Source of the DNA: a virus
Virus record (IMG/VR): IMGVR_UViG_3300049847_000176
Location: 1 to 33,605 of that record
Length of the DNA: 33,605 nt
Strand: one strand, 5' to 3'
The notes below the pieces were generated by a model that did not search any database, was not told the origin of the DNA, and saw only the letters and a list, made by a program, of their open reading frames with translations. A program made the translations under genes and the position numbers. Below, piece after piece: positions 20,550 through 32,240 of the stretch (the first letter of the stretch is position 1; each line of letters starts with the position of its first letter).

Positions 20550-23500
20550 ATGCCAGACATTTTCGACGAGATTGCACCGGACAAAGCTTCCGGTGGTGAC
20601 ATCTTTGATGAAATTGCGCCAGACTCGCACCCGCAATCGGCGGGCAAAACACCTGTAAAGCCATCCGATCCACGGCTATCACTCGACCCGTGGGATAACA
20701 TCCACCGCGAAGGCTCGTTTGATGCGGTGCTTTACGATGTCCGCAAAAACTTTCAACACCTTTCGCGCCAAGACCAGATTCGCATGGCCGCAGAGCGGAT
20801 GCGACGAGCTATACCCAAAGACCCAACATCCGGCGAGGCGTTTGTTGATACCGTCAAAGAATTGCCGGGCGAGATTGCTAAAGGGGTTGGACGAAGCATG
20901 GTTGTTGCTCCTATTCGCACCGCTGGCCGTGCAGTCGGAATGATGTCGTTTCCGGCTCGGTCTGATTACGACTCCGAGGAATCTTACAAAGAGGCTCGGA
21001 TTGCATGGAACGAGCAGCAAAAATCATCTCCCAATGTCGCAACCCGACTTGGTGATGCCATTGATGAAACATTTCAGCGGGCTTTCCCACAGCCAGAACA
21101 ACCCGGCTTGGAGCATGGTGTTGCCCAAGGCGTCGGCAATCTGGCTGGCATGTTGGCTACTGGCGGCGCGCTTAAGGCTGCGGGCGCAGGCGTTGGCGCG
21201 GTGACTGCGGGCGCGACCGCTATGGGCGGCGTCTCCGAGTTCGATGATGCCTTCAACCGGTCGGTGCAGCGTGGCGATGATTCAGACACAGCCTTTGCTA
21301 AGTCTCTCGGATACGCGAGCGTAGCGATGCTGATTGAGAACAAACTCGGTGCTGGCAGGTTGCTGCGACAATACTTCCCTGACGCGCTCACAGCGGCGAA
21401 GAAGCTGACAGCTTTAGGTGTAAGCAAGGCGGTTGCGGGCAACGTGCTGGCGGGGGCGATTGAAGAAACATCGCAAGCGGTGGCTCAGGATGTGATAGTT
21501 GATGAGAAGCTACCAACAGCAGAATCCGTGGGACAGAACTTCATGCAAGAAGGATTGCCGGGAGCAATCATTGAAGGTGGGTTTGGATTGCCGGGCGCGG
21601 TGGTTCAATCACTCAGTCAAGACGAGGAATACCAGAAGCAAAAACGTTTTTCGCGCGCCTTGGATGAAATGGCGAAGCGTCAGGCATTAGAGGCGACGAT
21701 ACCAAACGGAGCCCCGGTAGTGCCATCCAAGCCTGACATCTTTGACGAAGTTTCCGCAGAAATCTCACAGTCGCAAGCTCCCCGATCCTCTGACGTTACT
21801 GAAACTACTGAGTTGAACAACAAAACATCCGGCGCGGTGCAGGCGACTTCTCCCGCGTCGGGTGCTTCTACATCGAGCGGCAAGCCGACGTTGGTTTCTG
21901 GTGCGTTGGACAGCATCAAGGCGGCACAGGCGAACACGCAGCAGCGCGCGGATGTGCAGGCAGCGGAAAAGCCGTATTCAGCGGAGCAGGCGTTGAACGA
22001 CTTGGGCAGTGTGATCGCGGACATCAAGGCGAAGCTGGAGCAGAACCAAATTTCAAAACATTCCGGGAAACCGGATGCTACGGTAAAGCCCGCGCAAACC
22101 ATCACTGGCTCCAATGTGCAACCGGGCACTGAAATGCCGGTGCAGCCAGAGGCGCAAGCCAATGCTGGCGCGGCAATCGAGTTACTTTCGCCGCGCGCAG
22201 CGGAAAAGGCTGGAATCACTAGGGATGCTTTGATTGCGGCGCAAGAGAAAGCCTTAGCAGAGGGGCGACCAATCAACGCGGAGTCTGTGGATAGAATGGC
22301 GGCGGGACTTGGAACTAAGCCAAACCTTCCGCAGGGTTACGCACGGCAAGGAGACAACTATGTAAAATCTTCTCCCCCCCAAGGAACGGGCACGGCGGCG
22401 GGGCAAACGAAGCTGGCAACAGCTTCTCTCAAAAGTGAGGAACAACCTGCCTCGCCGTCGCCGGTCAAGAAGCCGCTTCCACAAGGCCAGCACGAAATCA
22501 GCAAGGATCAGGCTGTGGCGATTCATGGCGGACGGAAAGGATTGTTGCCAAAGCCGGGCGAAACTAAGGCACAGTTGCAGGATACAAGTGGTGAGTATTT
22601 CATCGGTCAAACCACTGACGGAAGATTCTTCACAGAGCATAGACCAAAGCAGTCTAGCCAGAAACCGTCTAGCCAAGAAGTGTCAACGCCTGCCAAATGG
22701 ACACCCACCACAGGCAAACGCGCGATCGTGCAGCTACGGCCCGGCGGCAAGGAACACTTTGCGATGGTCGGACAGGTGCAGCCAGACGGTAGTGCCACGG
22801 TGCGGATCAGCGGCGAGAAAGATTTCCGTCAGGTCGACGCCAATCAGCTATTCCCGACGAAAGCAGAACAGACGCGACAAGCCAAGAAAGATGAAGTCGC
22901 GCACCTTTCACCCGCGCAACAAGAGCAGATGAAGCAGGATGCAGCGGAGTTTGATACGCTCGTTGAAGATCACGCGCCACAACTGGGATGGGCACCGGGA
23001 GAGGCTTACGACCGCAACACCGACATGCAGGAGCAAGGCGTTGCCAATGGCCGATTGCGCGAGCAGGCGCGGAAGGCAGCAGCACGAGCAGCTGGCGTGG
23101 AGATGTATCAGGATAACAGCATCACCTATCGAGCAGCGGCATTGCCAAAACTTGAGGCGTATCTACGCCAGCAATTCCCCGGTGACAATTCAGTTGCCAA
23201 ACGCAGGGCATTGGAGGAATTTGGACGAAGTGAACCCGAAACGCCTTCCACCCCTGAGCAACAAGCCAGAGTCAAGCAAGACGAGCAAACCTTACGACGG
23301 GTCATTGATCAAAATCCCGTCGTCTCTGAGTTTCAAAATCTCCAAGTCTATCAACCCGCCAAGCGAGGAAACGCATCTGGACAGACCGGACAACTGGGTG
23401 GAAACCAAGGCCGGAAAAGAGTGGTTAGCGCGGGAGAACGCCAAGCGATCCGAGAACTAGACCGCGTTCTTGGTACGCACACGATCATTGTAGATTCTCC

Positions 23501-26500
23501 CGGCGCGGAAATTCCTTTCAACGGGGCGCGGGTAGGCAATTCCAACATCATCCTCCTTCACGCTCGCGCGAAAGCTCCATTGCTCACGGTAATGGGTCAT
23601 GAGTTATGGCACCACATTGAGCGGACACACCCCGGCTTGGCAGATGAAGCGAAAGCCGCACTTGCGCCCCTGATCCAAAATCATGCCGATTTCATGGATA
23701 GGTTGCGTCTGCGCGGCCAAGCCAAGGCAGACCCGGAATCGGAATTGGTTGGTGACTTTCTTGGTGACAACTTTGGGCGCAAAGAGTTTTGGGACGACTT
23801 GAACCGGCGCGAACCGAATCTTTTCAAGCGGCTCGCGCGGATTGTCAAGGGATGGCTGGACAAGCTGATTGCCAAACTCAAGGGCGAGAAGCCGAAGGGT
23901 TTCGAGAGCGAACAGTATTTCAGCGACTTGGAACATGCGCGGGACGTGGTGGCAAATGCGTTGGTACAGGCGGCAAGGGAAACGCAGTATCGGGCGAAGG
24001 GTATCCCGGCGGATGTAGCCACAGAGACGCAGAGCGCACAAGAGGGTGAGCGATTCTCGAAGCGCGACGACTCGCCGGGTTTCTTTGATGCGCCGGAGAG
24101 TGTTTCTGAGCAGAAGGCACGTCAAGGCGTCGAGAAGCGCAAGGCGGACGAAGCCAGGGCGAAGCAGTCCATGCAGGAACGTGCGGGCGCAAAGCTGACC
24201 GGCGCAGACGTGGATACCACCAGGGAGATGTTCGGCTCGGAGGTCAAACAGGACAAGGCTGGGCAAGGCAGTTTGTTCAGCAAGTCGGAGCGCGAGAAAG
24301 GCCCGTTGTGGCGGTCGAACATTCAGGATGCGTTGGAAAGCTGGCAGAACAAGGGGACGCCGGAACAGTTGCGGGCGCACCTAGCCAAGACCAAGGGCGC
24401 GATGGACGAAGCGGAATGGATCGGGTTGGATGAGTTCTTGAAGGACAAGCCGAGTGTGACCAAGCATCAGGTGGCGGAGTTTGTCAAAGCCAACACGGTT
24501 GACGTGCAGGAGGTTTCGCACAGCGATCAGAAGCCACTGACCGCCATCGAGCGGAACGCGAAACTCAACGAGTTGGCGCAAGCCAAGCACGGCCAAAATT
24601 TCGACAACCTTCCGCCGGGTGACCGCTTCAACATCCAAAACAGTCTGGAAATTCAAGACGCCGGGGAGCGCACTAAATTTGCCAACTACCAACTGCCCGG
24701 CGGGGAGAACTACCGCGAGTTGTTGCTGACGTTGCCGGAAGATCAGAACAGGGCGCACGCGCAACACTCGGAACGCATCAAGGAATTGATTGCGCGCCGG
24801 GACAAGATGCGCGTGGCTTTGGAACGGTATCCCAACGCGCCAGCGGACGACCGGGCACGGATGGAAACCGACGTGCGCAATACTGACATGCAAATCAGTA
24901 TGGCAATGCGCGAGAAGCCGAAAGACCGTGGAGCTTTCCGCAGTTCCCACTTTGACGAGCCGAACATTCTGGCGCATGTGCGGTTCAATGAACGCACGGA
25001 CGCGGACGGCAAGCGCGTGTTGTTCATCGAGGGAGTGCAATCCGACTGGCGTCAGAAGGGGAGGAAAGAGGGGTATGGCGCACAGTCTGGTTTCAAGGTT
25101 GTTGACGAGAACGGCGACATGATAGCGCGGCAGCCTACAAGGGACGCGGCAGAGCGGATTGCGGATAATTACCGCGCTGGCACGACTCCACTACAACAAC
25201 AAACAGGACGCGGCGGCGCGGCGGCAACGGTTGTTCCAGTAACAGGCGATATTCAAGGCGTCCCCAATGCTCCATTCAAACAGACGTGGCCGATGCTGGC
25301 GATGAAGCGGATGATCCGCTACGCGAGCGAAAACGGCTTTGACCGCATTGCTTGGACGACGGGCGAGCAGCAGGCGGAACGGTATGATTTGAGCAAGCAG
25401 ATTGAAGAAGTGCGGTTGCTTGATTCCGGCAAAGGTCATTTCCGATTCGCGGCTTGGGATAAGAGCAACCAGTTGGCCTTTGAGAAGTATTTCGACAAAG
25501 CACCTAGCCATGCAGAGCTTGAAGAATATATCGGCAAAGAACCCGCTACAAAATTGCTCGAAGCGGTTGACCAAAAGAACCCCAAATCAGACGGCACATT
25601 CAAATCCATTTCCGGCCTCGACCTAAAAGTTGGCGGCGAGGGGATGAAGGGTTTTTACGACAAGATTTTGCCAGGAGAGGTCAACAAGTACGTGAAGAAA
25701 TGGGGCGGGCGCGTGGGACGCGCTGCCATTCCTACGGGAGAAGAAGGAGCGCAGTTTGAAGTTGTGTTACCAAGCGGCAAGGTTGTTGCGACGGAAAGCA
25801 CCAAGCGACTTGCTGATAACACTGCCAAAATGTTTGACGGCGCGGTTGTTCGCCAAGCTGCCAGTGAAGTCCACTCCCTCGACATCACGCCAGCCATGCG
25901 GGACGCGGCCATGCAGGGGATGCCGTTGTTTTCCAAGCCGGAAGCATGGAAGCAACTAAAGCAGGATGTGGCGGACGCAGAGGACAAGCTGCGTGAAGCC
26001 ATCCGCGTTGCTGGCAACGCCACAGTGCGGCAGCAGGCAGGTATCTCCACCGTGCAGGCGCGGAATCAGAAGAGCATCGCCACGGCAGAGCTAAGGCGCG
26101 CACAAGATGATTTGCGGACGAATCCTAGCTACGTCGAACACTTGATGCGGCGCACCAAGGAGATTCAGCAGGAAATCAATGCCTTGCGCGGCGCGGATGG
26201 CACGATTGCGGACAAGCAACGCAAGGCGGATTTGGAGGGTGAATTTGAGACGTTGAACTACGAGCTTTCCGAAGCGCCGAAGAAACTGGTTTCCAAGATT
26301 TACAACGACAAGTTCATGTCCGGTGATGAAAAGACAGCGCGCGAGAAGCGGGCCGGATCACAGGCGACCGGAACGACGGGAACATCCAACGCACCGGGCG
26401 GGGGTGAGATTGCGCCAGAATCCAAGGCGGCGCGGATCAAGGCGGCTGTAATCAACTTCCCTGCCACGTTGCGCGGAGCTAAAAACGCAGCGGTCAAGAC

Positions 26501-28889
26501 CACTCAAAAGCTATCCGCGATGTGGTCGGCGCGCGAGAACCGGGACATGATAGCGGCGACTTACGACGCGGCGGAGAACGGCGGTGAATTGTTCGGACGC
26601 CAAGCGGCAAATGAAGTCTTGCACACACTGAACCGCAGCTTTGGCGCACCAGCAGACCGCGTAGGCGCGCGGAACCCCGTACGCGAACAGGCGTTGTCCT
26701 TCGTCGTCGAGTCCAACATCAGCGAAGCGGAGTTGCAAGATTTCAAGATGCAGATTAAAGGCAGCGACTTTGCCGACAGCAAGCAGGGCAAGGAAGCGTT
26801 GAAAGCCATCGAGTTTGCGGAGAATCATTGGGAACGTATTGAGCCTGCGGCGCAGCTATACAAGCAGATCACAGACGCCCAGGTGGAGCATGAGAACTTG
26901 GCTGGGGTGGAGACGTTGCAGATCAAGGGCGGCTACGTCATGCACATGACGGACACGATGGCGAACCATGCCTTGCCGGATGTGGGCAGCGCAGGCGGTA
27001 ACATCTCGTCACCCTTCCTCAAGACTCGCGTTCACAGCACGTTTGCGGATGCTATCGGCGCGGGGGAAGCACCGAAATCCATCAATGCCGTGGATTTGAT
27101 TCAACGCCGGTTGGCTTTGGGGCAAAAGCTGATCAATCACGGCGCATGGGTGGATGGAATGTTTCGATACCTCGATCCAAAGACGCAAACACCAATCGTG
27201 ATGCCGACGATCACCAAGGTTCGCAAGGACGGCAAGGAATACGAGGACGCCCCGCATGGCTTCGTCAAGATGCAGCTTGGCGCGCAGACGTTTGCCGTGA
27301 TGCGTGGCTACGACGGGTTGATAAAGAGCATCATCACCCCCAGCACGATCCGCAATAGCGTGGCTGGCAATGTGGCGATGGAACTGGCAGGCGGAATCAA
27401 GCACAGCATGTTGGTGTTCGACAGCTATCACCTTGGCCGGTTGGCGTTCTGGTCGTCAATGGTACGCGGAAACGTCCTGCCGGGCGATCCTACGAGCTAC
27501 CGGCGCGGATTGACGCTACTGGATAACACAATACCGGAGATTCAACGCATGGTCGAAGGCGGCGAAATCCCGAAGGCATGGTTGAAAGACCTGATCGAGA
27601 GCAAACGACAACTGGCGTTGCTGGTGAGCAAGGGGCTGAATGTCGGCAGCGTGGGTGACAACATCGCCACACACTTTGTCCAAAACCTGCCGATTGCTGG
27701 CACGTTCAATAAGTTCCTGTTCCAGAAGTATCAGCGCGGAGCCACCGCAGAGGCTTCATTGATCGAGTTGCGCCGCCAGATAAAGATGAATCCAGACGTG
27801 AGTGAGGACGTTCTCGCGCGACGGGTGGCATCCGACCTGAATAAACGCTTTGGCAACCTGCAAAACCAGTCTTGGATAAAGAATAAGAACCTCGCTGACA
27901 TCGCGCGGATCATCTTTCTTGCGCCGCAATGGAACGAGAGTTTGATACGCAGCGAAATCGGCGCGGCAAAGGAGATCGGCAAAGCACCGTTCGACTCGTG
28001 GCGCACGAAGCGGGTCAACATCGGCTTGCTGGGGCGCGCGGTGGCGACGGCTTTGATTGGGACATTCATAGCCAACCAGATCATCAACATGATCACGCGC
28101 GGCAAACCGACTTGGGAAAACGAGGAAGAAGAAAATGCGGCCAAGTTGAGCGCATGGATACCGGATGTGGTTGGTGACGGGCCGGGATTCTTCCTGAATC
28201 CATTGACGCTACCGGCTGAAATGAGCGAGTTGTTGCTGAAAAAGACCGAGCGCACAGGCGACATGACGCAGGCCGCAAAGCAGGTGTTCGCGTCGAGGCT
28301 TGGGCCGTTGGGGAGAGTGCCCTACACGCTGGCTGTGCGCGAAGATGCGCTTGGTGCGAAACTCCGCACCGGGCCGGAAGTGTTGGGGCAGATGGCAAGC
28401 AGTCTTGTGCCGTTGCCTATCAGCGGCGGTACGCTCTACGGTGCTGGTAAGCAGATGGTGACGGGTGAACATGAAGAAAAATACCCCGGACAATTCCAGC
28501 GCCAGGCGTTTCAGACGTTCGGCGTGAAGCTGGACGCCGCACCGTCACCAGATCAGCGGATCCGTAGCCTTGCAAAAGAGTTCAACCGCGAGAAAGGCAT
28601 CACGCCCGCAGCGGAGTTCTTCCACGGGGACTATTACGACCTAGACCGGGCGGCGATCATCGGCAACCAGCGCGAAATGGCTAAGGCAATGGCAGTGGTG
28701 TTAGAGAAAAAGAGCAAGGAGGACATCAGGAAGCATTACGACCGATGGGCAACCGCACCCTTCACAGGCAAAGCCGAACGCGAACACGAGTTTGTCAAGA
28801 CTCTGGATGCGGAACAGCGGGCGACTCTGGATGCGGCGCGGGCAAGGCGGAAGCTGTTGAAGAATGAGATTTTGAAGCAGCTACATTGA
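20550..28889 (+). CDS. Giant polyvalent/ejection protein (2779 aa) with zinc-peptidase motif
   Basis: This gene fills a quarter of the window. The N-terminus holds the repeated motif DIFDEIAPD (residues 3-11 and 17-25, again as DIFDEV at 396). Residues about 180-360 are Ala/Gly-rich helices that could insert in membranes, followed by low-complexity linkers to about 950. Residues 1017-1022 read HELWHH, a zinc-peptidase HExxH motif with acidic candidates for a third ligand (E1063, E1065). Residues about 1350-1800 form a domain marked by Glu-Gly-Val-QSDW (1494-1500) and MLAMKRMIRYASENGFDRIA, recurrent in very large phage proteins. A coiled coil follows (about 1795-1920). The C-terminal 850 residues are helical, with a possible membrane segment near 2490-2520. 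It probably enters the host with the DNA. I see no lytic transglycosylase motif. Confidence 0.8.
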   Translation: MPDIFDEIAPDKASGGDIFDEIAPDSHPQSAGKTPVKPSDPRLSLDPWDNIHREGSFDAVLYDVRKNFQHLSRQDQIRMAAERMRRAIPKDPTSGEAFVDTVKELPGEIAKGVGRSMVVAPIRTAGRAVGMMSFPARSDYDSEESYKEARIAWNEQQKSSPNVATRLGDAIDETFQRAFPQPEQPGLEHGVAQGVGNLAGMLATGGALKAAGAGVGAVTAGATAMGGVSEFDDAFNRSVQRGDDSDTAFAKSLGYASVAMLIENKLGAGRLLRQYFPDALTAAKKLTALGVSKAVAGNVLAGAIEETSQAVAQDVIVDEKLPTAESVGQNFMQEGLPGAIIEGGFGLPGAVVQSLSQDEEYQKQKRFSRALDEMAKRQALEATIPNGAPVVPSKPDIFDEVSAEISQSQAPRSSDVTETTELNNKTSGAVQATSPASGASTSSGKPTLVSGALDSIKAAQANTQQRADVQAAEKPYSAEQALNDLGSVIADIKAKLEQNQISKHSGKPDATVKPAQTITGSNVQPGTEMPVQPEAQANAGAAIELLSPRAAEKAGITRDALIAAQEKALAEGRPINAESVDRMAAGLGTKPNLPQGYARQGDNYVKSSPPQGTGTAAGQTKLATASLKSEEQPASPSPVKKPLPQGQHEISKDQAVAIHGGRKGLLPKPGETKAQLQDTSGEYFIGQTTDGRFFTEHRPKQSSQKPSSQEVSTPAKWTPTTGKRAIVQLRPGGKEHFAMVGQVQPDGSATVRISGEKDFRQVDANQLFPTKAEQTRQAKKDEVAHLSPAQQEQMKQDAAEFDTLVEDHAPQLGWAPGEAYDRNTDMQEQGVANGRLREQARKAAARAAGVEMYQDNSITYRAAALPKLEAYLRQQFPGDNSVAKRRALEEFGRSEPETPSTPEQQARVKQDEQTLRRVIDQNPVVSEFQNLQVYQPAKRGNASGQTGQLGGNQGRKRVVSAGERQAIRELDRVLGTHTIIVDSPGAEIPFNGARVGNSNIILLHARAKAPLLTVMGHELWHHIERTHPGLADEAKAALAPLIQNHADFMDRLRLRGQAKADPESELVGDFLGDNFGRKEFWDDLNRREPNLFKRLARIVKGWLDKLIAKLKGEKPKGFESEQYFSDLEHARDVVANALVQAARETQYRAKGIPADVATETQSAQEGERFSKRDDSPGFFDAPESVSEQKARQGVEKRKADEARAKQSMQERAGAKLTGADVDTTREMFGSEVKQDKAGQGSLFSKSEREKGPLWRSNIQDALESWQNKGTPEQLRAHLAKTKGAMDEAEWIGLDEFLKDKPSVTKHQVAEFVKANTVDVQEVSHSDQKPLTAIERNAKLNELAQAKHGQNFDNLPPGDRFNIQNSLEIQDAGERTKFANYQLPGGENYRELLLTLPEDQNRAHAQHSERIKELIARRDKMRVALERYPNAPADDRARMETDVRNTDMQISMAMREKPKDRGAFRSSHFDEPNILAHVRFNERTDADGKRVLFIEGVQSDWRQKGRKEGYGAQSGFKVVDENGDMIARQPTRDAAERIADNYRAGTTPLQQQTGRGGAAATVVPVTGDIQGVPNAPFKQTWPMLAMKRMIRYASENGFDRIAWTTGEQQAERYDLSKQIEEVRLLDSGKGHFRFAAWDKSNQLAFEKYFDKAPSHAELEEYIGKEPATKLLEAVDQKNPKSDGTFKSISGLDLKVGGEGMKGFYDKILPGEVNKYVKKWGGRVGRAAIPTGEEGAQFEVVLPSGKVVATESTKRLADNTAKMFDGAVVRQAASEVHSLDITPAMRDAAMQGMPLFSKPEAWKQLKQDVADAEDKLREAIRVAGNATVRQQAGISTVQARNQKSIATAELRRAQDDLRTNPSYVEHLMRRTKEIQQEINALRGADGTIADKQRKADLEGEFETLNYELSEAPKKLVSKIYNDKFMSGDEKTAREKRAGSQATGTTGTSNAPGGGEIAPESKAARIKAAVINFPATLRGAKNAAVKTTQKLSAMWSARENRDMIAATYDAAENGGELFGRQAANEVLHTLNRSFGAPADRVGARNPVREQALSFVVESNISEAELQDFKMQIKGSDFADSKQGKEALKAIEFAENHWERIEPAAQLYKQITDAQVEHENLAGVETLQIKGGYVMHMTDTMANHALPDVGSAGGNISSPFLKTRVHSTFADAIGAGEAPKSINAVDLIQRRLALGQKLINHGAWVDGMFRYLDPKTQTPIVMPTITKVRKDGKEYEDAPHGFVKMQLGAQTFAVMRGYDGLIKSIITPSTIRNSVAGNVAMELAGGIKHSMLVFDSYHLGRLAFWSSMVRGNVLPGDPTSYRRGLTLLDNTIPEIQRMVEGGEIPKAWLKDLIESKRQLALLVSKGLNVGSVGDNIATHFVQNLPIAGTFNKFLFQKYQRGATAEASLIELRRQIKMNPDVSEDVLARRVASDLNKRFGNLQNQSWIKNKNLADIARIIFLAPQWNESLIRSEIGAAKEIGKAPFDSWRTKRVNIGLLGRAVATALIGTFIANQIINMITRGKPTWENEEEENAAKLSAWIPDVVGDGPGFFLNPLTLPAEMSELLLKKTERTGDMTQAAKQVFASRLGPLGRVPYTLAVREDALGAKLRTGPEVLGQMASSLVPLPISGGTLYGAGKQMVTGEHEEKYPGQFQRQAFQTFGVKLDAAPSPDQRIRSLAKEFNREKGITPAAEFFHGDYYDLDRAAIIGNQREMAKAMAVVLEKKSKEDIRKHYDRWATAPFTGKAEREHEFVKTLDAEQRATLDAARARRKLLKNEILKQLH

Positions 28890-29082
28890 ATTGTTGCTTA
28901 AGCTCGGACAATACGGCGCGGACGTGTTTGCAGTTCCAATGTTGCGCGGTGCGGTTATGCTCAATGGCACAGGCGCACTTGGGATCACCAAAGGGAGACT
29001 TCAAATCAACCTTCCACGGCAGATCATCCGTTTCTGAACTGACCAGAAACACGCCCGGCTCGTCTGTGGGGGTGACGGTCAT
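28795..29082 (-). CDS. SWIM-type zinc-finger protein (95 aa)
   Basis: From ATG at 29082 (ATGA overlap with the gene upstream) the protein has a beta-rich N-terminus (EPGVFLVSSETDDLPWKVDL) and then C-A-C ... N-C-K-H (KCACAIEHNRTAQHWNCKHV). This is the C-x-C-x(n)-C-x-H pattern of SWIM zinc fingers, which bind DNA or proteins and are found near recombination and helicase functions. The Ser/Ala/Pro-rich last 30 residues are encoded by DNA that is also the end of the convergent giant gene (95 bases shared). The C-terminal end may be unimportant. It is the last gene of the leftward operon in this window. Confidence 0.65.
   Translation of the reverse strand: MTVTPTDEPGVFLVSSETDDLPWKVDLKSPFGDPKCACAIEHNRTAQHWNCKHVRAVLSELKQQFNVAASKSHSSTASALPAPHPESPAVPHPES
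28799..28836 (+). repeat. 14-bp direct repeat in a convergent gene overlap
   Basis: GACTCTGGATGCGG occurs at 28799-28812 and again at 28823-28836, with a 24-bp period (eight codons). In the giant protein it encodes TLDA twice. On the other strand it gives the repeated HPES at the end of the SWIM protein. One small duplication thus altered both proteins. Confidence 0.8.
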
Positions 29083-29636
29083 CGTTTGTGTGGCGGTTGG
29101 TAAGGCACTCCACACATCTCAAAGACGTGTTCCTCGCTAGTTGCTGGCGTGATTGTGCCGTCACTCCATCTCACGCCCTGACCGTATGCCATCAAGGACG
29201 CTCCTTTTTTATTGGCGCCAGTGGTCAGGGCCAGGTTGGTTTCTTTGCTCCCGGTGCGAATCACGAGCGAAACCCACCACCTATCTTCGTTTGTGCCGAA
29301 CAAATCCACGGGGATGCCGCTGGGTACATGAATCGCCAGCTTGTTGCGCTCGCCCCAAGTGAAATGACCGTTGACGTTCGGGCGTTTTGCGAGAACACCA
29401 TCGGTAAGCAACCCTCCGACAACCTCGTTGCACACGTCAACAATTCTGGAGTCAAACAATCCGTCTGGTCGTTCGGAAAGAACCGGCACAAACAGCAACT
29501 CAATGTCGCCAACTTCCGACTTCAATCGTCTAAGGCTTCCGGCAATGCAAATGCGCTTGCAGGCCGGGGCAATCATGGCCTGGATTTCTTCGGCCACTGC
29601 CAAGGCTTCGGCGTGTGGGAATTTGGTTTTGCTCAT
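29079..29636 (-). CDS. DNA polymerase X-like nucleotidyltransferase (185 aa)
   Basis: The protein shows the palm signature of the polymerase beta/X superfamily: IAGSLRRLKSEVGDIELLFV, with GS and RR at residues 33-37 and the acidic pair D44 and E46. A third acidic candidate is D111 (GIPVDLFG). A thumb-like end follows: WWVSLVIRTGSKETNLALTT, then YGQGVRWSDGTITPATSEEH and FEMCGVPYQPPHKR, matching the Gly-Ser and final Pro-x-x-Arg patterns of PolX. The usual second Asp is Glu here. It lacks the 8-kDa and HhH parts of full PolX enzymes, so it is a minimal form. It may fill gaps in repair or act on RNA ends. ATGA overlaps on both sides show operon membership. Confidence 0.8.
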   Translation of the reverse strand: MSKTKFPHAEALAVAEEIQAMIAPACKRICIAGSLRRLKSEVGDIELLFVPVLSERPDGLFDSRIVDVCNEVVGGLLTDGVLAKRPNVNGHFTWGERNKLAIHVPSGIPVDLFGTNEDRWWVSLVIRTGSKETNLALTTGANKKGASLMAYGQGVRWSDGTITPATSEEHVFEMCGVPYQPPHKR

Positions 29637-29809: not shown

Positions 29810-30171
29810 AGCCTCATCACTTCAACGCTGATTTCTTCCGGCTCGCCCTTTCTGCATTTTGTTTGCGCGACTTCAATGCGGCATTGGTCAGGTGCATCAT
29901 CAGGGATGACGCCACCGTAGCGCAGGAGATCAACGAGGTATTTTTCGCACAAGTTGTCTTGGTCAATGAGTCGCTTACGCCGCGATCCAATGCGGACGCA
30001 AAATCGCGCTTGAGTTGGTCTTTGAACTTCTTCCGTTGCCAGTGGTGCATGGCAAGGATTTGGTTCCAGCTTGGCAACCTGCCGGGGATTTTTAACTCGA
30101 ATATCAGAGTCGAGTTGTGCGCGGATTGTGGCTTGGGTGCGTTCATTGAATTGGTCAATTCGGAAGCTCAT
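29806..30171 (-). CDS. RusA-like Holliday-junction resolvase candidate
   Basis: The 121-residue reading starts at ATG 30171 with an ATGA overlap to the gene upstream. The last 70 residues resemble the RusA core: RFCVRIGSRRKRLIDQDNLC, then LVDLLRYGGVIPDDAPDQCR, in which acidic residues of the DQDN and PDDAPD motifs match the metal-binding Asp residues of RusA. The family cuts Holliday junctions made in phage recombination. The N-terminal 50 residues (MSFRIDQFNERTQATIRAQL) are unlike RusA; a RusA-like N-terminus (PGRLPSWNQILAMHHWQRKK) lies in another frame of the same DNA. Two readings are possible: overlapping genes, or one gene joined by a frameshift at GATTTTG near 30013. Confidence 0.65.
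   Translation of the reverse strand: MSFRIDQFNERTQATIRAQLDSDIRVKNPRQVAKLEPNPCHAPLATEEVQRPTQARFCVRIGSRRKRLIDQDNLCEKYLVDLLRYGGVIPDDAPDQCRIEVAQTKCRKGEPEEISVEVMRL
29817..30146 (-). CDS. ORF nested in the RusA-like gene, other frame
   Basis: From ATG 30146 an open frame of 109 residues lies entirely inside the RusA-like gene. Its first part, STLIFELKIPGRLPSWNQIL then MHHWQRKKFKDQLKRDFASA, looks like a genuine protein segment and recalls the N-terminus of RusA (Pro-Pro-Ser-x-Asn and a basic helix). Its second half is Ser/Thr/Lys-rich and resembles no domain known to me. If a minus-one shift occurs on the T4 run, the good parts of both frames join into one protein of about 100 residues, shorter than RusA (120). 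Without that it would be a dual-coding gene. The ORF itself is certain; translation is not. Confidence 0.4.
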   Translation of the reverse strand: MNAPKPQSAHNSTLIFELKIPGRLPSWNQILAMHHWQRKKFKDQLKRDFASALDRGVSDSLTKTTCAKNTSLISCATVASSLMMHLTNAALKSRKQNAERASRKKSALK

Positions 30172-30428
30172 ACAACGCCAGCTTTCACCATGTCGGCGGC
30201 AGCATCTTCCATCAGCGCATGATCCAGTGCGGCGATGGCTTCCGCTGGCGTCTTACCGACTGCACCGATGCGGTAATTGTCCACTCCACCCACTGCGGCG
30301 GATTCTTCTAGGGACAAGTCGCCAAAGTCGAGAATTGCAAAATACTGATCCAGTTGTTGAGCGACGATGAGCTTCCGTTTTGTTCCGAACGAGAGCGCGG
30401 AGTCAATCCATGTGGGCAGTGTTGTCAT
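30168..30428 (-). CDS. Small hypothetical protein (86 aa)
   Basis: I start this at ATG 30428, because the longer frame to 30566 would run through the attachment-site repeats and part of the tRNA fragment. The protein begins MTTLPTWIDSALSFGTKRKL and has a central beta strand (QQLDQYFAILDFGDL), with an acidic helical end (AGKTP-like turn, then EAIAALDHALMEDAAADMV). No motif is recognised. The stop overlaps the resolvase-like start (ATGA). It is the first gene after the attachment site when the strand is read leftwards, so its promoter may lie between the site and 30428. Confidence 0.65.
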   Translation of the reverse strand: MTTLPTWIDSALSFGTKRKLIVAQQLDQYFAILDFGDLSLEESAAVGGVDNYRIGAVGKTPAEAIAALDHALMEDAAADMVKAGVV

Positions 30429-30435
30429 AGTGTTC

Positions 30436-30459
30436 GAAGTCAGTTTTGAAGTCAGTTTT
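30436..30459 (+). repeat. Left arm-type repeats of the attachment site (2 x 12 bp)
   Basis: Two perfect tandem copies of GAAGTCAGTTTT lie about 100 bases to the left of the tRNA-derived core. Related 12-bp tandem copies occur to the right of the core. Paired repeats outside the core are the usual binding sites for the N-terminal domain of tyrosine integrases, so these are likely arm sites. That role is inferred. Confidence 0.6.
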
Positions 30460-30557
30460 GGTGAAAAACCGCAAGCTTGAGATTTTTTAGAATCGGCATA
30501 AGCCACAGGTATAAAGGCGCATGAGTCATCTTGGGTTTTATGCGGATATGGCTTGGA

Positions 30558-30606
30558 TGGACTCATAATCCTTTGGTTCTCGGTTCAAGTCCGAGCAGGC
30601 CCACCA
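30558..30606 (+). other. attP core: 3' half of a CAU-anticodon tRNA
   Basis: From 30558 the sequence is the right half of a tRNA. It has an anticodon loop CTCATAA (anticodon CAT at 30564-30566), a T arm with stem CTCGG/CCGAG (30579-30583 and 30591-30595) around TTCAAGT, an acceptor strand CAGGCCC (30596-30602), a discriminator A and an encoded CCA (30604-30606). The 5' half is not recognisable. Such a fragment next to a tyrosine integrase gene is the phage copy of the tRNA gene used for integration; insertion rebuilds the host tRNA. The tRNA is most like tRNA-Ile2 or Met. Confidence 0.8.
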
Positions 30607-30847
30607 CAACCTCAACGGGTTGCGATGGTTTTTGATTTTGGGCGTTTTCTTTCAAGTCAGTATTTAAGTCAGGTTTTGCCTCTAACTCTTTCAGACGACG
30701 CCAGTCTTTGATGAGCCAATCCACATTTACGCCGCATGTTCCAACACCATCGCACGATTGGCACGCGATGAGTCCCATTGCGCTTTCAAACCACTTCTTG
30801 CCGTGACAACGCCAGCAGGTCTTTTGTTTCGGGCGATAGTTACTCAT
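30563..30847 (-). CDS. DnaJ-type zinc-finger protein (94 aa) ending in the attachment core
   Basis: Start at ATG 30847 overlaps the integrase stop (ATGA). Residues 10-40 hold two CxxCxG units (KTCWRCHGKKW and ACQSCDGVGTC), as in the zinc centre of DnaJ and small zinc proteins; WLIKDWRRLKELEAKPDL follows as a charged helix. The last residues, GLLGLEPRTKGL, are encoded by the antisense of the tRNA fragment, and the TGA stop coincides with the anticodon region. The stop therefore lies in the core, and integration would not change the protein. It may act as an excision or regulatory partner of integrase, because it is coupled to it; that is inference. Confidence 0.65.
   Translation of the reverse strand: MSNYRPKQKTCWRCHGKKWFESAMGLIACQSCDGVGTCGVNVDWLIKDWRRLKELEAKPDLNTDLKENAQNQKPSQPVEVVVGLLGLEPRTKGL
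30653..30676 (+). repeat. Right arm-type repeats of the attachment site (2 x 12 bp)
   Basis: CAAGTCAGTATT and TAAGTCAGGTTT form a tandem pair of 12-bp units 47 bases to the right of the core. They share AAGTCAG and the T-rich end with the perfect pair at 30436-30459, in the same orientation and with the same 12-bp period. Here they lie inside the coding region of the zinc protein. Confidence 0.55.
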
Positions 30848-31977
30848 GCGATCCGCGCAATCTTCTGTTGTTCGGGCAACCAGCGATCCCATGCGGGCAA
30901 TCCTTGGCTGGGTTTCCAACTGAGCGGTTTTCCGCCAGGTGTGTCGCCGTAGGTGGTTGGGATCAGGCTCACGGTTTTATCTCCAATCTCAGCGGCGACC
31001 ACGGAATCATGCGCCCCTTCCCTGCGGCGTTTGGTGACGTAGTAGGCGCGCAGGCCGTGCGGGATGATGTGCGGAATACCAAGCGCGACACAAACCCGGC
31101 GCAGGGCTTGGCCGTGGCTCTTGGCGGTGGTGACGCTCCCAAACGGGCTGGGGAAATACGGCTTGTGATGCGGATGGCGCGCGGAGTGCCAGAGATCAAA
31201 ACAACTCAGCATCCGCGCGAAGTCGTCGCCGATGATCACGAACGGGTTGACGCCGGATTTGCTGCGTCGGCCAAGGTGTAGGTGATCATCAGCGCGGTGG
31301 CCGGGTTGTCCGCTCGGTGCGCCAAAACGGAGGCGTAGCAGTTCGCTGGTGCGACAGCCGGTGAACACTTGAAACAGCGTCATCCAGGCAAACACTTCCG
31401 AGCGGACGGAGTTCGACAGCATATAATCGCAGATCGAGTGAATGACATTGGCGGATTCGGGCATCTTGGCGCGGCAATGGATCACGTCGGACGTTTTGCG
31501 GTAGCGTGGGCGGTTGTAGCGGATGTGATTTTGTTCGATGGCTTGGATGGCAATGCCGTATTGCAGGATGTTAGACAGGGTGTTCAAGTCTTTATCCACG
31601 GCGCGTTGACATCCGTGTTTTGTGCGGCATCGCTTCATTCGCCACGCGGCGTATTTGGGGATCAATGGCAGGCGGATTTCATCGGGCAGGAACTTGCCGA
31701 ACCAGTTTTTGAGTGTGGCGACCCGTGAAGATTCTTCTTTGATGAAATCTTTGGTGCGTGATTCCATGCGGCGATTGGGGCAACCGGCATCCAAGTAGAG
31801 TTGCGACAAAGCCTCAAATGAATCGGCGCGGCTGGCTGTCGCGGCTTGTGCGGCGGCGATGGCGGCGCGTTTGGTGGTTTCTTTGAGCAGCTTCCAAGTG
31901 TACCGACCGTGGACGGGAAAGCGCGCGTGATAGCGGCCTGCCTCGTCAACGTAGGTTCTTGGAGCGACGCGTTTCAT
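30844..31977 (-). CDS. int: Tyrosine integrase
   Basis: This site-specific recombinase of 377 residues integrates and excises the phage. The start at ATG 31977 overlaps the stop of the membrane protein gene (ATGA); the longer frame from 32001 is less likely. An N-terminal region binds arm and core DNA. The catalytic set is visible: R209 in FTGCRTSELLRLRF, K240 in GRRSKSGVNPF, H307-x-x-R310 in IPHGLRAYYVTKRR and the nucleophile Y343 in IPTTYGD. The usual second His before the Tyr is replaced (AEIGDKTVS has Asp). The att site lies about 240 bases downstream of its stop, the normal distance for tRNA-targeting integrases. Confidence 0.93.
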   Translation of the reverse strand: MKRVAPRTYVDEAGRYHARFPVHGRYTWKLLKETTKRAAIAAAQAATASRADSFEALSQLYLDAGCPNRRMESRTKDFIKEESSRVATLKNWFGKFLPDEIRLPLIPKYAAWRMKRCRTKHGCQRAVDKDLNTLSNILQYGIAIQAIEQNHIRYNRPRYRKTSDVIHCRAKMPESANVIHSICDYMLSNSVRSEVFAWMTLFQVFTGCRTSELLRLRFGAPSGQPGHRADDHLHLGRRSKSGVNPFVIIGDDFARMLSCFDLWHSARHPHHKPYFPSPFGSVTTAKSHGQALRRVCVALGIPHIIPHGLRAYYVTKRRREGAHDSVVAAEIGDKTVSLIPTTYGDTPGGKPLSWKPSQGLPAWDRWLPEQQKIARIA

Positions 31978-32240
31978 GTTTTCGTGCGGAACAGCAGCCA
32001 TGTGCCTGCGGTGATGCCAGCAAGGGTCAACAGTTCAACGGCAAGAATATCTGCGGCGATTTGAGCGCGGACGGGCCAGCTTGTGTTGTTGCCTTTAGGT
32101 GGATCAAACAGTGGCGACCATGCAAGCTCTACGCTGCGCTCGTGTCCCGATGGGTCTTTGGTGACGATTCTCCAAGGGGGATTTAACAACAATGCAACCA
32201 ACGACACAGCGGCAAGAGCGGTGATGATTTTGGTTTTCAT
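31974..32240 (-). CDS. Small membrane protein (88 aa)
   Basis: The start at ATG 32240 follows a Shine-Dalgarno AGGAAA eight or so bases upstream. The N-terminal hydrophobic stretch (MKTKIITALAAVSLVALLL) is a membrane anchor or uncleaved signal. A polar part follows (DPSGHERSVELAWSPLF), and a second hydrophobic segment (AADILAVELLTLAGITAGTW) precedes the basic end FRTKT. Two membrane passes put both ends on the same side. It is coupled to integrase. Membrane proteins in lysogenic regions often exclude other phages, which is a possibility here without direct support. Confidence 0.65.
   Translation of the reverse strand: MKTKIITALAAVSLVALLLNPPWRIVTKDPSGHERSVELAWSPLFDPPKGNNTSWPVRAQIAADILAVELLTLAGITAGTWLLFRTKT

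Follow-up and report, generated by a model that had tools for sequence, protein, structure and literature searches.

A probable tRNA-targeting phage attachment site with paired arm-type repeats in a viral contig with likely hosts in Verrucomicrobia subdivision 3

Layout of the attachment site

The window analyzed here, which is the whole of the IMG/VR virus record IMGVR_UViG_3300049847_000176 (33,605 bases, classed linear), very probably carries the attachment site (attP) of a temperate phage whose hosts belong to Verrucomicrobia subdivision 3 (Limisphaerales), a site that the adjacent integrase would use at a host CAU tRNA gene (probably tRNA-Ile2). The attP was complete, with a P-O-P' layout (30436-30676) made of two repeats on the left, the 3' part of a tRNA gene, and two repeats on the right. 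The left arm consisted of P1 (GAAGTCAGTTTT; 30436..30447) and its perfect copy P2 (30448..30459), and the right arm of P'1 (CAAGTCAGTATT; 30653..30664) and P'2 (TAAGTCAGGTTT; 30665..30676), each with two mismatches to GAAGTCAGTTTT. All four units were located on the plus strand, in one orientation and with a 12-bp period. The core (30559..30606, plus strand), delimited by exact genome matches, comprised the last 48 bp of a CAU tRNA gene, starting in the anticodon stem and including the CCA, and contained the anticodon loop CTCATAA (30562..30568, plus strand), a putative strand-exchange (overlap) region by analogy. A weak terminator-like hairpin (30607..30622, plus strand; one found versus 0.6 expected by chance) lay directly 3' of the core, and was also present in an integrated remnant (L008, see below). 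The gene encoding the tyrosine integrase (385 aa; 30844..32001, minus strand), identified by profile and fold matches, had its 3' end toward attP, 168 bases to the right of the repeats.

Single repeat units with at most three mismatches occurred at chance level in the window (23 found versus 23.2 expected). As single units were thus not rare, all places with two tandem pairs were scored in a blind scan (period of 10-13, pairs 100-400 bases apart, maximum score of 72). The attP site ranked first in the window with a score of 62 of 72, the next best place reaching 48. None of 60 dinucleotide-preserving shuffles of the window reached 62 (maximum = 51), and neither did any of 100 shuffles in a second run with slightly different limits. 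The four-repeat arrangement is therefore beyond chance, and the description given in the initial annotation, with two perfect units on the left and two related units on the right in one orientation and at a 12-bp period, was confirmed by both the sequence and the blind scan. Each side of the core possessed its own repeat pair, as in POP'.

The tRNA core and the likely host

The core had initially been described as about 49 bases long and as starting in the anticodon stem of a CAU tRNA. The start in the stem and the CAU anticodon were borne out, while the length was corrected to 48 bp, from base 29 of the 76-nt tRNA (5' strand of the anticodon stem) through the encoded CCA. No complete tRNA was found in the window by ARAGORN, so that the left side was considered to lack the tRNA 5' part.

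The exact 48-bp core was found in 10 stretches belonging to nine genomes of a genome collection covering 84,980 species, and in 0 stretches of the viral contig collection. Nine of the 10 stretches contained an intact tRNA with anticodon CAU, the tenth (L004) possessing the core only. All nine core-bearing genomes fell within a single order (Verrucomicrobia subdivision 3 / Limisphaerales); the search at the tRNA-Ile2/Met genes of candidate hosts that had been proposed at the outset thus recovered the target tRNA within one Verrucomicrobia order. A 45-bp core retrieved the identical nine among the 320 genomes in the order of the L008 genome (the order of G007). The titles of the core-bearing genomes were Verrucomicrobia subdivision 3, Limisphaerales or Verrucomicrobia/Verrucomicrobiales, except for one MAG with two stretches titled 'Akkermansia muciniphila', which fell into this order as well. 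The window and each stretch shared exactly the 48 bases, bar chance one-base extensions, with extra identity to the right of the core in L008 (120 bp at 90.8%) and L011 (58 bp at 94.8%). These matches point to Limisphaerales / Verrucomicrobia subdivision 3 as the likely hosts, and the core would place a viral contig that otherwise lacks any host link within a single order of uncultured bacteria.

The target tRNA, of the type GGGCCTG...CAGGCCC, was labeled Met by ARAGORN from its anticodon. A second CAU tRNA that is not an initiator (type GCCAG...CTGGC) was also encoded by the host genomes. Based on the TilS determinants in the acceptor stem, the window target resembles tRNA-Ile2 and the second CAU tRNA an elongator Met, an assignment that we consider fairly probable.

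Phages do carry tRNA genes, and the core matched five annotated phage records at 87-88% identity, two of these matches being located in annotated tRNA-Met genes. The tRNA-like stretch might on these grounds be a decayed phage tRNA gene, or a chance likeness, and not an attachment core, but exactly the 3' 48 bases were kept, mismatch-free to the host genomes and with the 5' part absent, and in relatives the corresponding position was occupied by 3' halves of different tRNAs, which makes such an origin exceedingly improbable.

Integrated relatives at the CAU tRNA gene

In the Pedos-510 genome (L008), a dapF-like gene was followed by the intact tRNA, the P' sequence, a decayed integrase piece, and host genes including purN- and hisG-like ORFs (these names, like dapF-like, were assigned by eye). 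The region of 120-bp identity to the window included both right-hand repeats in a diverged form, and the decayed integrase end showed 74% nucleotide identity over 477 bp and contained internal stops. L008 is, to judge by this gene order, an old attL of a relative of the window phage. It shows the attL side only, and no attR of a close relative of the window phage was found.

Another element may occupy the same tRNA in the MAG G003. In L011, the intact tRNA was followed by a pair with an 11-bp period and the motif GCCACT, and in L004 a pair with the GCCACT motif lay ahead of the core, which was devoid of the tRNA 5' part. These loci look like the two ends of one element, with one arm pair per end; as they are located on separate contigs, we infer their pairing. 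One pair per junction was found in the elements integrated at this tRNA (L008/L012, L011, L004), as expected of a prophage. Together with the presence of phage genes on both sides of the window site, this lends weight to the earlier claim that arms on both sides denote P-O-P' and not a prophage end.

The integrase and the proposed mechanism

The integrase matched phrog_1 (5.7e-15) and PF00589 (2.6e-5, below the PF00589 cut-off), and its catalytic residues Arg217, His315-x-x-Arg318 and Tyr351 were invariant in a 19-sequence alignment. An AlphaFold model built from this alignment (mean pLDDT = 86.7) contained, in its N-terminal part, four short strands at residues 10-38 followed by a helix, and an N-terminal arm-binding domain is predicted to be present. 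The best PDB matches obtained with Foldseek were full-length lambda integrase (1z1b, 1z1g, 5j0n; E-values between 2.7e-11 and 4.5e-10; ~15% identity), with an overall rmsd that was large (~14-15) because the domains are placed differently, and that dropped to ~4 when only the core-binding and catalytic part (1z19) was compared. A phmmer search of the integrase against solved structures returned nothing useful. The protein is modeled as a lambda-type (heterobivalent) tyrosine integrase. In a 12-sequence alignment, the candidate position of the second conserved His/Trp ahead of the catalytic Tyr (residue 341 of the window integrase, assigned by eye) was Asp in the window, L017, L018 and L013, as part of Gly-Asp, and His in five of the eight others, part of the family having Gly-His.

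The window and lambda are alike in their heterobivalent integrase fold, including the N-terminal part, and in having a core flanked by arm sites on either side. Lambda, in contrast, is not known to target a tRNA gene, and its arm layout is longer and asymmetric and includes sites for IHF, Xis and Fis. The repeat unit of the window presumably also resembles the lambda arm-site consensus; a literature search for the lambda arm-site motif gave no match.

In the proposed mechanism, the N-terminal domain of the integrase would bind the paired 12-bp arm repeats and its catalytic domain the core, so that the protein would bridge the arm pairs and the core. Strand exchange with the identical part of the host CAU tRNA gene would then take place at the anticodon loop or close to it, the loop being a candidate crossover point by analogy with the anticodon-centred attP sites of Islander. 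Integration would generate an attL made of the intact tRNA gene followed by P', and an attR made of P and a spare tRNA fragment. With the whole tRNA 3' part, including the CCA, present in attP, one junction would keep an intact tRNA gene; as the phage would supply this part as well as the weak terminator-like hairpin, the tRNA would remain whole in the lysogen. The integration system may be active at present.

Comparison with known attachment sites

The four-repeat architecture is already published for the Cluster J mycobacteriophages, and the window site is a further example with naturally varied arm sites. The Cluster J report (Omega, BAKA and others; PMC3706429) describes an attP 3' of a tyrosine integrase gene, with a 44-bp core common to a tRNA gene and flanked by two pairs (P1-P2 and P3-P4) of imperfect direct repeats with one consensus. 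The window shares with it the position of attP 3' of int, the tRNA core and the two pairs of direct-repeat arm sites. They differ in that the Cluster J system involves a tRNA-Leu, an actinobacterial host and 10-bp TGCATAC-type repeats, whereas the window has a CAU tRNA, a probable verrucomicrobial host and a 12-bp period, and in that a plasmid was used to demonstrate integration for Cluster J (PMC3706429), whereas for the window site integration is predicted from sequence. This likeness is one of architecture, suggesting a similar way of working, with no claim of common cassette descent.

Pairs of arm sites flanking attP cores are also described in a paper on tRNA-dependent lysogeny (PMC10865867). 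The Islander data comprise 2,083 islands with anticodon-centred sites, which resemble the window in their crossover region at the anticodon loop and in the 3' tDNA fragment on the element; they are integrated islands, whereas the window site appears as an unintegrated attP on a viral contig (PMC4383910). For IntS of ICEMlSym(R7A), an attP is reported with five arm-type motifs in 283 bp, all needed for efficient integration (PMC11963761). This system and the window both associate an integrase with several arm-type motifs around the core, and differ in the motif consensus and in the type of element, an integrative conjugative element versus a phage (PMC11963761).

Related integrases with varied arm motifs and tRNA targets

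Integrase matches were found in 33 of the 320 genomes in the order of the L008 genome, to which this search was confined. With the window protein alone, no close integrase relatives were retrieved from the viral contig collection, and a tblastn search of the annotated phage records for the integrase returned none. The 12-sequence integrase alignment led to 11 loci in the viral contig collection. In seven of them (L053, L054, L058, L060, L061, L062 and L063), the top site of the blind scan consisted of four repeats next to the integrase, the two pairs enclosing a tRNA 3' half (CAU, Arg-ACG, Arg-TCT and Arg-TCG, as read by eye). The period was 12 in all seven, and the distance between pairs ranged from 197 to 239 (217 in the window). 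The site score was matched by none of 100 shuffles in six of the seven and by two of 100 in L060. Among the remaining loci, L055, L056 and L057 had a tRNA 3' half near the integrase with clear pairs absent, and L059, whose contig ends 100 bp past its match, had no clear four-repeat site.

In tRNA sense, the arm motif was AAGTCAGT in the window and L053, TAGTCCAC in L054 and L058, GYATACCA in L061-L063, and GTGTACA in L060. The L053 integrase was the closest viral relative of the window integrase (53% identity); its core was identical, by eye, to part of the second CAU tRNA of the L008 genome (the 3' half), with the arm motif of the window kept. These loci may represent a verrucomicrobial integrase family with a fixed P1P2-O-P'1P'2 geometry (mostly a 12-bp period, with pairs ~200-240 bp apart), in which the arm motif and the target tRNA vary, a generalization that we hold to be evenly balanced between true and false. 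If true, it would offer a natural series for the code between the integrase N-domain and the arm repeats, and for tRNA target switching. Few genetic tools are available for Verrucomicrobia, and the relatives, as about ten natural integrase/arm-repeat pairs with constant spacing, could guide the design of integration vectors for this group. No description of the family was found in a limited literature search on attP, prophages and tRNA integration in Verrucomicrobia.

The right-hand pair was additionally assessed at 13 tRNA 3' ends (the window, 11 integrase-adjacent tRNAs, and L011), as the best 9-mer repeat at an offset of 11 or 12 within 150 bases past the tRNA 3' end, compared with 300 shuffles. 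It was unlikely to arise by shuffling in 10 of the 13 (at most 8 of 300 shuffles), and was weak in L012 (60 of 300), L033 (44 of 300) and L011 (53 of 300). A P' pair as a general feature downstream of this CAU tRNA was discarded, as six of the seven control loci that have the tRNA but no adjacent family integrase showed nothing special. At the control locus L009 (5300-5450), the CAU tRNA was followed by a strong perfect 9-mer repeat with an 11-bp offset, possibly the arm pair of another element.

The left pair of the window immediately precedes a small ORF with an ATG start (30168-30428, minus strand), and the repeats could in principle be operators for the regulator of this short gene, unrelated to integration. 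This is very improbable, as equivalent pairs flanked different tRNA fragments in the seven of 11 integrase relatives described above, and the tRNA-side pairs began 45-48 bases after the tRNA end in seven of the 13 integrase- or element-adjacent tRNAs.

Arm-type repeats were also sought by pattern in the viral contig collection. Fourteen stretches (L086-L099) with four AAGTCAG units at 12-bp spacing proved to be long tandem arrays, and none of the 14 was a new attP; the gap limits of this pattern leave out L053 by two bases. In one of these arrays (L091), one frame encoded repeated NQVR-like tetrapeptides. The four-unit pattern with AGTCCAC was found only in the contig of L054. On a small contig (L034:1200-1500), the C-terminal piece of a related integrase was accompanied by a tRNA 3' fragment with 12-bp-period repeats on its left. 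This contig also possessed a Zot-like ORF (by eye), and is perhaps a filamentous phage.

State of the contig and phage gene context

Phage DNA flanked the attP core on both sides. Head and packaging genes were located to its left, as was the gene for a pol-beta-like protein (185 aa; 29079-29636, minus strand; DNA polymerase beta thumb, PF14791, 2.7e-10), a 40% homologue of which was present near the integrase in the viral contig L062. To the right were the integrase gene and another gene, for which the viral contig L053 contained a 62% homologue. The major capsid protein shared at most 36% identity with any annotated phage record, and no relatives were retrieved with this protein alone from the viral contig collection.

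The window starts inside the large terminase gene (terL), whose reading frame is open from base 1 and whose ORF matches the 760-position terminase profile over positions 464-715 only; for this reason, the contig is not a closed genome, and it is likely, short of proven, to be free phage DNA. The initial annotation had read the site as P-O-P' as in a free phage: the arms on both sides stood, and the free state was retained as likely only, since the contig is unclosed and two prophages integrated in tandem would also have POP' at their middle junction. From sequence, such a tandem would give the same picture on a linear, incomplete contig. Tandem lysogeny is nevertheless rarer, no host DNA was seen in the 33.6 kb of the window, and the record is classified as viral, so that a double prophage appears quite improbable next to an attP on free phage DNA.

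Two further ORFs were observed in the window. A single ORF of 2,779 aa (20550-28889) had no PHROGs match. A 93-aa ORF with CxxC motifs (30563-30844, minus strand) extended from the integrase stop across the P' repeats and ended within the tRNA core, so that the tRNA 3' end codes for its C-terminus.
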